From the NCBI RefSeq assembly GCF_010686755.1, contig NZ_JAAGXA010000009.1, positions 1-64,000 of the forward strand: a stretch of 64,000 bases of DNA, in the 5' to 3' direction. Position numbers and translations under genes: made by a program. Of the stretch, positions 10,458 to 10,553 are shown piece by piece (position 1 is the stretch's first letter; every line of letters begins with the position of its first letter). Source of the stretch: Nocardioides zeae. Lineage in GTDB: Bacteria; Actinomycetota; Actinomycetes; Propionibacteriales; Nocardioidaceae. The notes below the pieces were generated by a model, which was not told the DNA's origin, made no database searches, and saw only the letters and a list, made by a program, of their open reading frames with translations.

Positions 10458-10553
10458 GACACTTTCCCCGGTCGACCGGGGAAAGTGTCGCTTCGACCAT
10501 CAAATTTGATGGTCAAAGCGGCGTGTTCCCCGGTCGCCCGGGGAACACGCCGC
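10458..10553. repeat. Chain of three palindromes (repeat locus A)
   Basis: Three abutting palindromes fill the gap between pheT and argC. P: 10458-10489, perfect, arm GACACTTTCCCCGGTC. M2: 10489-10520, arm CGCTTCGACCATCAAA with one mismatch. M1: 10518-10553, arm GCGGCGTGTTCCCCGG with one mismatch near the centre. M2 and M1-like modules recur near 60459-60516 in the same orientation. The hairpins could end pheT transcription, but no U-run follows any of them. Confidence 0.85.

Follow-up and report, generated by a model that had tools for sequence, protein, structure and literature searches.

The intergenic region between pheT and argC is occupied by a 96-bp chain of three palindromes (Table 1). 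The initial annotation of this DNA, a 64,000-nucleotide stretch hereafter called the window, had described a perfect 32-mer, a 32-mer with one mismatched pair and a 36-mer, again with one mismatched pair. These lengths and mismatches were reproduced, at 10458-10489, 10489-10520 and 10518-10553, respectively, and Pfam searches confirmed the identity of the neighbouring genes. The chain can be written as A-B-A: palindrome A has the form TTCCCCGG-N4-CCGGGGAA, with variable arms, and palindrome B the form GACCATCAA-NN-TTGATGGTC. The units are tiled with almost no spacer and their centres lie exactly 31 bp apart. As both flanking genes are on the minus strand, the chain begins about 20 bp downstream of the stop codon of pheT. 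Folded as single-stranded DNA, it reached -49.0 kcal/mol (z = -11.7), and none of 200 shuffled sequences folded as well.

Table 1. Positions of the palindromic units, the genes next to them and the nuclease-like gene found elsewhere in the same genome
Feature	Position	Strand	Remarks
Palindrome A, outer left	10458..10489	no strand	32 bp, perfect; core TTCCCCGG(N4)CCGGGGAA
Palindrome B, centre	10490..10519	no strand	30 bp; core GACCATCAANNTTGATGGTC; 31 bp centre-to-centre to each A
Palindrome A, outer right	10520..10551	no strand	32 bp; extended palindrome 10518-10553
Whole A-B-A short copy	10458..10553	no strand	between pheT and argC (both -)
Palindrome A, second window copy	60453..60484	no strand	
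Palindrome B, second window copy	60485..60514	no strand	
Half-A tail, second window copy	60515..60529	no strand	GGTCGGTTCGGTGCA
pheT	10573-13080	-	Pfam; stop at 10573
argC	9356 to ~10390	-	Pfam
Own-genome nuclease-like gene	L029:5006-5968		

A search of the window for palindromes with arms of at least 14, a loop of at most 4 and no more than one mismatch returned seven, of which two belong to the chain and a third lies at 60483-60516. In five 64-kb control sequences generated by a Markov model, the counts were 0, 2, 0, 0 and 1. The recurrence of two modules around 60459-60516, already remarked upon in the initial annotation, corresponds to a second copy (60453-60529) composed of A-B followed by half an A. 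The sequence of this tail, GGTCGGTTCGGTGCA, resembles the gene-side sequence at one end of a full element (see below) in a related genome (region L092 of G162). Other long palindromes were seen in the window: one at 22455-22493 (GCGCCGAGTTGTCTCGAATGATTCGAGACAACTCGGCGC) is unlike A or B, and two more, GC-rich and with arms of 16-17, lie at 17635-17668 and 42050-42085.

The genome to which the window belongs (G000; 4.40 Mb in 33 contigs) was searched for further copies. Allowing up to two mismatches, the palindrome arm matched 35 times in forward and 37 times in reverse orientation, as compared to 2 and 0 matches for a reversed-pattern control; thus, the outcome that the initial annotation had named as refuting, a genome with only the two copies of the window, did not occur. 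Palindrome B was found at 33 sites (up to three mismatches; control, 0) and palindrome A at a minimum of 82 (control, 4). We read the 39 regions around the matches, and A sites elsewhere in part. These regions contained 38 B-centred copies having at least one A at 31 bp, namely 29 with the structure A-B-A, five A-B and four B-A. An additional B without an A was present in L010 and A alone in L031 and L036, and one of the 39 regions (L011) contained no element. The chain is therefore one of approximately 40 copies of the ends of a small mobile-looking unit, scattered through the genome.

Placement relative to genes could be scored for 34 copies, the two ends that frame a gene being counted as two copies, L009 being kept in spite of its location inside a predicted ORF, and a chance B match within an ORF (L037:7326) as well as six groups at contig ends being left out. 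Twenty copies lay between convergent genes, 11 between tandem genes and 3 between divergent genes, and 33 were outside the ORFs predicted by a home-made gene caller based on codon usage. Relative to the other gaps of at least 60 bp in the same regions, an approximate background, convergent gaps were enriched (Fisher p ~4e-8). Many copies start 10-30 bp behind a stop codon. Such positions are those expected of structural elements owned by the host, such as bidirectional terminators or mRNA-protecting hairpins, which selection and gene conversion would maintain and which would have captured a gene by chance, and the RNA of the window copy with its flanks folded with -90.3 kcal/mol. However, the window copy has no terminator-like T-run: in agreement with the earlier remark that no U-run follows the chain, a terminator scan of the interval 10300-10700 found none at the element and a single weak site at 10410-10423.

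The appearance of the family, its extragenic position, its mosaic build and the inverted-repeat-framed gene described below all resemble REPtrons as presented in two REP studies (PMC2817692, PMC3733652). This resemblance would favour a classical REP/BIME (REPIN) family moved, at present or in the past, by a RAYT, a HuH tyrosine transposase. We searched 33 genomes, comprising three carriers of the repeats and 30 other genomes of the genus, for the Y1_Tnp domain (PF01797) and found it in none, while the same search was positive in 5 of 14 control genomes. REPs are divided into GTAG- and CGTC-tagged families (PMC3733652). Here, GTAG was present in none of 29 aligned copies, and CGTC or its complement occurred in four of the 29, outside the consensus. 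Moreover, the framed gene is unrelated to RAYTs and nuclease-like. For present genomes a RAYT is thus largely refuted, and we consider this explanation barely credible. What stands of the REP/BIME-like mosaic family proposed in the initial annotation is the set of ~40 dispersed, modular and mostly extragenic copies; the link to a RAYT-type transposase does not.

Covariation among the copies was higher for three local hairpins than in any of 500 shuffles. A giant single hairpin spanning the whole 98 bp was rejected, as its covariation was no better than that of shuffled alignments (161 of 500 as high). The comparison would favour three local hairpins over one long hairpin in a supportive capacity only, since two of the five measures were unexceptional and the copies, belonging to one family, are related. 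In regions L003, L021, L037, L085 and L196, an extra motif, GTCACAGGAGTTGACAA, recurs directly outside the A palindrome; it also remains next to a decayed half A in G000 (L196). Separately, four contigs of G000 (C5, C9, C15 and C30; regions L010, L013, L019 and L031) begin with ~127 bases of insertion-sequence ends joined inside B. The four ends have the terminal motif CGTTGCTTAGACCGATGGAC in common, and one orthologue in G107 (L207) is intact. An insertion sequence with ends of its own, an invader, thus seems to target the B palindrome; some insertion sequences are reported to target REPs (PMC1525189).

We considered whether the short copies could be MITEs, that is, derivatives of a conventional DDE insertion sequence for which the nuclease-like gene is a passenger. 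The short inverted-repeat ends, the gene-less copies and the dispersal would all fit this description. Against it, a flanking 5-mer was common to both sides in 2 of 28 copies (shuffled mean, 2.9), which is the chance level, so that no target duplication of 5 bp or more was seen; and the insertion sequence that interrupts B copies has ends of its own and is an invader.

Among 196 sampled genomes of the genus, B (with at most one mismatch) was present in three: G000 (30 sites), G107 (22 sites) and G162 (47 sites), a narrow distribution that also argues against elements owned by the host. Exact B sequences in 20 stretches of wider genome contigs and in eight of viral contigs, collections that may omit records near the genome under study, were dismissed as chance matches because they were single palindromes from unrelated taxa. 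Orthologous copies occur in both related species. Eighteen G162 sites were examined, out of 19 listed B copies among the 47 counted, and 13 of them, including those corresponding to both copies of the window, were orthologous to element sites in G000. Of the other five, one corresponded to a half A in G000 and four had no match in the fetched regions. The G162 orthologue of the chain in the window (L199) has different arms.

Comparison of the palindrome A centres revealed a species-typical signature. TCGA was found in 47 of 66 centres in G000 (39 loci) and in 22 of 23 in G107 (14 loci), and CTGA in 33 of 39 in G162 (21 loci). At one pair of orthologous sites (L009 and L204) the element was 0.71 identical versus 0.94 for its flanks and was still palindromic; across 19 pairs the element was no better conserved than its flanks (0.84 vs 0.82, with wide scatter). 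To judge from these alignments, each species has homogenised its copies at conserved sites. Gene conversion of the ordinary kind between repeats, with no nuclease involved, could bring this about. No clean pair of filled and empty sites was found. Two candidates were discarded: L004/L192, empty in G162 yet affected by further indels, and L085/L196, where half an A remains in G000. At the position of the L004 element of G000, G107 has ~8 kb of other DNA (L194:5300-13527).

In contig C29 of G000, an A-B and a B-A lie ~1.1 kb apart and enclose a single ORF of 320 amino acids. The full unit has the plan A-B-half A-[gene]-half B-B-A and measures ~1.2 kb, the half B being on the 5′ side of the gene. 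All three carriers have the gene framed by A-B and B-A, with spans of 1217, 1216 and 1217 bp in G000, G107 and G162, respectively. Close homologues of the protein were found in the same three genomes only (100, 88 and 71% amino acid identity; 196 genomes searched), the next best match having 44%. In G107 the gene occupies the same place as in G000. In G162 it lies at a different locus, again as A-B-gene-B-A. The sequence to the left of the G162 site is present in G000 and G107 (94% identity), with no element next to it. No counterpart of the right flank was found in these genomes, and the site is thus not a clean empty site.

Several observations bear on the relationship between the full unit and the short copies. 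The G000 gene site has a gene-less form of 257 bp in G162, where four such A-B..B-A forms of 257-258 bp were identified (L197, L217, L218 and L221). At one site with 94% identical flanks, a 258-bp A-B..B-A in G162 corresponds to an A-B-A in G000 and G107. The inner arm of the right-hand A in the window chain is GGCGTGTT, which is the arm beside B on the 5′ side of the gene in the full element. This arm is present on exactly one inner side in 23 of 29 A-B-A copies of G000 and on both sides in none, as expected if recombination between two B's had joined the two ends. Short A-B-A copies thus look like deletion products, generated by collapse between the two B's of a longer form.

The N-terminus of the 320-aa protein matches the AbiEi_4 winged helix (PF13338, E 1.2e-8), a domain detected in 19 of 20 members of the protein family; the AbiEi model of PADLOC matches all 20, and a model for methyl-directed restriction enzymes matches three of them weakly. 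Pfam and NCBIfam named no nuclease domain for the protein, and NCBIfam returned nothing useful. D237, E248-F-D-G251, E272 and R275 in the C-terminal third are invariant, and K254 is conserved in 42 of 43 sequences. The residues D237, E248-F-D-G251 and K254 follow one another in the order of a PD-(D/E)XK site. In a profile search of the PDB, AbaSI ranked first with a weak score (E = 0.035), the C-terminal ~100 residues aligning with its N-terminal part, which is the Vsr-like nuclease domain. Together, the conserved residues and the weak profile match suggest that the C-terminus may be a PD-(D/E)XK-like nuclease domain of the Vsr/AbaSI kind. In the G000 copy, position 254 is Thr and not the Lys found in the other sequences; the nuclease may therefore be inactive in this genome, while close relatives keep the Lys.

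An AbiEi-type protein could also act as a regulator only, in which case A and B would be operators, located at its own gene for autoregulation and at dispersed targets. AbiEi and Rv2827c recognise inverted repeats within the promoters of their own genes (PMC7319586), and cooperative binding fits the fixed 31-bp pitch. However, the sites flank the gene on both sides, and the prevalence of convergent gaps among the placed copies, with no more than 3 of 34 in divergent gaps, where promoters lie, is not what operators would predict. The presence of gene and sites together at a new locus in G162 and the conservation of nuclease-like residues also argue against a purely regulatory role, which we hold to be unlikely. 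The four gene neighbours at the G000 locus are predicted to specify an FMN reductase, a PEBP, a luciferase-like monooxygenase and a phosphoribosyltransferase; the DUF1814 nucleotidyltransferase toxin is absent from among them.

More distant homologues (E up to 1e-30) are widespread, being found in 160 of the 196 sampled genomes of the genus. Of the 49 places that scored best in genomes other than the three carriers, 40 were taken with ~4 kb on either side; the other nine, seven with shorter flanks and two near contig ends, were left out. A palindrome (arm of at least 12, within 350 bp) was found upstream of the gene in 30 of the 40 loci, downstream in 23 and on both sides in 22, leaving 18 homologues without palindromes on both sides. 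In 15 loci the same palindrome (at least 85% identity) was present on either side. When 1101 control positions were drawn at random from these regions, one had palindromes on both sides and none had the same palindrome on both sides. The framing palindromes differ from genome to genome. An internal control is provided by a clade of 11 members within this protein family, delimited by reading the tree, in which none of the genes has palindromes on both sides and four have them on one side. The clade (L128, L133, L136-L138, L140, L141, L148, L151, L154 and L160) is possibly a host-fixed (domesticated) branch. Outside the genus, 18 homologue places (E up to 1e-40) were found in 9 of 295 other genomes. 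The same palindrome was present on both sides in three of them, namely the two places in a second genus of the family and a single place in a different family, so that beyond the genus's family the count is only 1 of 16. No homologue was found in the viral contigs.

The palindromes framing the more distant homologues are themselves repeated elsewhere. In G103, the inner palindrome of the gene occurs at 15 places, including two at the gene itself; 15 other genomes had none. The palindrome type of G195, G187, G083 and G119 occurs at 40, 40, 19 and 5 places, respectively; a variant is present at four places in G056, and the other 11 genomes have none. Cognate palindromes are thus dispersed in their own genomes for the two types tested. 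The same framing by unrelated palindromes, yet its lack in the related 11-member clade, makes host-owned structural elements with a gene captured by chance an improbable origin for the family, although a structural role for the host could be a secondary use. As for the MITE explanation, no gene other than the nuclease-like one was found between the ends, and in other genomes that gene is again enclosed by palindromes, of unrelated sequence. On these grounds, a passenger gene in a DDE-type element appears very improbable.

The spacing seen in the window recurs at other framed loci. Among 31 pairs of neighbouring palindromes next to the gene and closer than 60 bp to each other, 23 had a centre distance of exactly 31.0 bp (17 of 46 loci). 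Six of these came from the three carriers and the remaining 17 from the 40 loci, which contributed 24 pairs. Of the 32 pairs lying beyond 350 bp from the gene, four showed this distance, and a minimum of two among the four (L139) are repeats of the palindromes at the gene. A 31-bp pair more than 350 bp from the gene was also noted in L128, from the clade without two-sided framing. A direct repeat of the inner half of B scored best at +20 bp in 16 of 23 ends (48 offsets tried), with 9 or more matches out of 12 in eight of the 23; in the carriers, the +20 repeat is restricted to the 5′ end of the gene. At the dispersed places, a partner palindrome at 31.0 bp was present in 15 of 15 cases in G103. 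At the same level of detection, 6 of 15 A places in five other genomes had such a partner, with G119 giving 0 of 3. The geometry is thus kept around palindromes unrelated in sequence in other genomes. Three helical turns between palindromes suggest that protomers may line up along the same face of the DNA.

The reading that we favour takes as its starting point what was observed directly: the anatomy of the unit, its copy number, the co-occurrence of gene and repeats, the shared geometry, the dispersal of two palindromes and homogenisation within species. It holds that the chain between pheT and argC is a shortened copy, without the gene, of a mobile-looking unit specifying an AbiEi winged helix and nuclease-like protein, which would work by binding, nicking and repair-copying; we place its probability at about 0.7. 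The winged helices of several protomers would bind the palindromes as an array along a single face of the DNA, the A and B centres being 31 bp apart. The nuclease-like domain would then nick or cut at the bound palindromes, and host repair might copy the ends to other sites, by insertion or by overwriting, either alone or along with the gene. Recombination between two B's would drop the gene and leave a short A-B-A copy. Such a working could account for the homogenisation, the mosaic arms, the lack of target duplication and the gene loss. The particular chemistry, that is, DNA binding, cleavage and repair-copying, is put forward tentatively, with slightly less than even confidence. Since we infer these steps, actual mobility has the same standing. 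Transposition by the same protein, or gene conversion without the protein, would also explain much of the data.

The spread of palindromic repeats has so far been explained mainly through RAYTs, and here the candidate driver belongs to another class of proteins. The system offers a testable geometry in genomes where no RAYT was found. It also provides a possible function for a family that the libraries name antitoxin (AbiEi), and suggests that the label type IV antitoxin may be misleading for its many members in this genus. A search of the open-access literature, most subscription papers lying outside it, found no report that connects dispersed palindromes to AbiEi-type nuclease genes.

Among known systems, the closest likeness is to REP/BIME/REPIN sequences and their RAYT (TnpA-REP) genes. 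Both feature short, mostly intergenic palindromes dispersed in one genome or a few relatives, a cognate gene framed by two inverted copies, short copies that far outnumber the gene, and different enzyme types paired with different palindromes. Unlike RAYTs, which are HuH Y1 transposases, the protein described here combines an AbiEi winged helix and a PD-(D/E)XK-like domain, and its repeats lack GTAG and consist of two distinct palindromes at a fixed 31-bp pitch. The number of B copies per carrier genome, 22-47, also differs from that of REPs, which often exceed 100. RAYTs are described as single-copy and vertically inherited (PMC8049555). TIRtrons likewise consist of a gene between long terminal inverted repeats, which may in addition be dispersed as a family, whereas their TIRYT genes specify tyrosine transposases with an HuH motif (PMC3733652). 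With the AbiE type IV toxin-antitoxin systems the protein shares the N-terminal winged helix, and known AbiEi-type proteins bind inverted repeats; the differences are the missing DUF1814 toxin in the four G000 neighbours, the nuclease-like C-terminus and the dispersed repeats. The Vsr/AbaSI endonucleases of the PD-(D/E)XK class align weakly with the C-terminal ~100 residues, the differences here being the fusion to an AbiEi-type winged helix and the framing by palindromes.

In sum, the system is organised like REP/RAYT but differs from it in the enzyme and the tag. To our knowledge, its protein class, its two-palindrome plan and its likely chemistry are unlike those of any mobile or repeat system, and for this reason we call it new in kind; if any gene with dispersed palindromes is taken as one kind, it would be a variant thereof. 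The chances appear evenly balanced that it represents a new mobile element, an AbiEi winged helix-PD-(D/E)XK unit with ends of a fixed plan (A, 31 bp, B, often a half B at +20), spreading and overwriting by cut and repair, associated with many palindromes in several genera, and an independent counterpart of RAYTs and REPs. The comparison is best read as pointing to a REP/RAYT-like system in which an unrelated nuclease takes the place of the RAYT, and whose spread perhaps proceeds via nicking and repair-copying.
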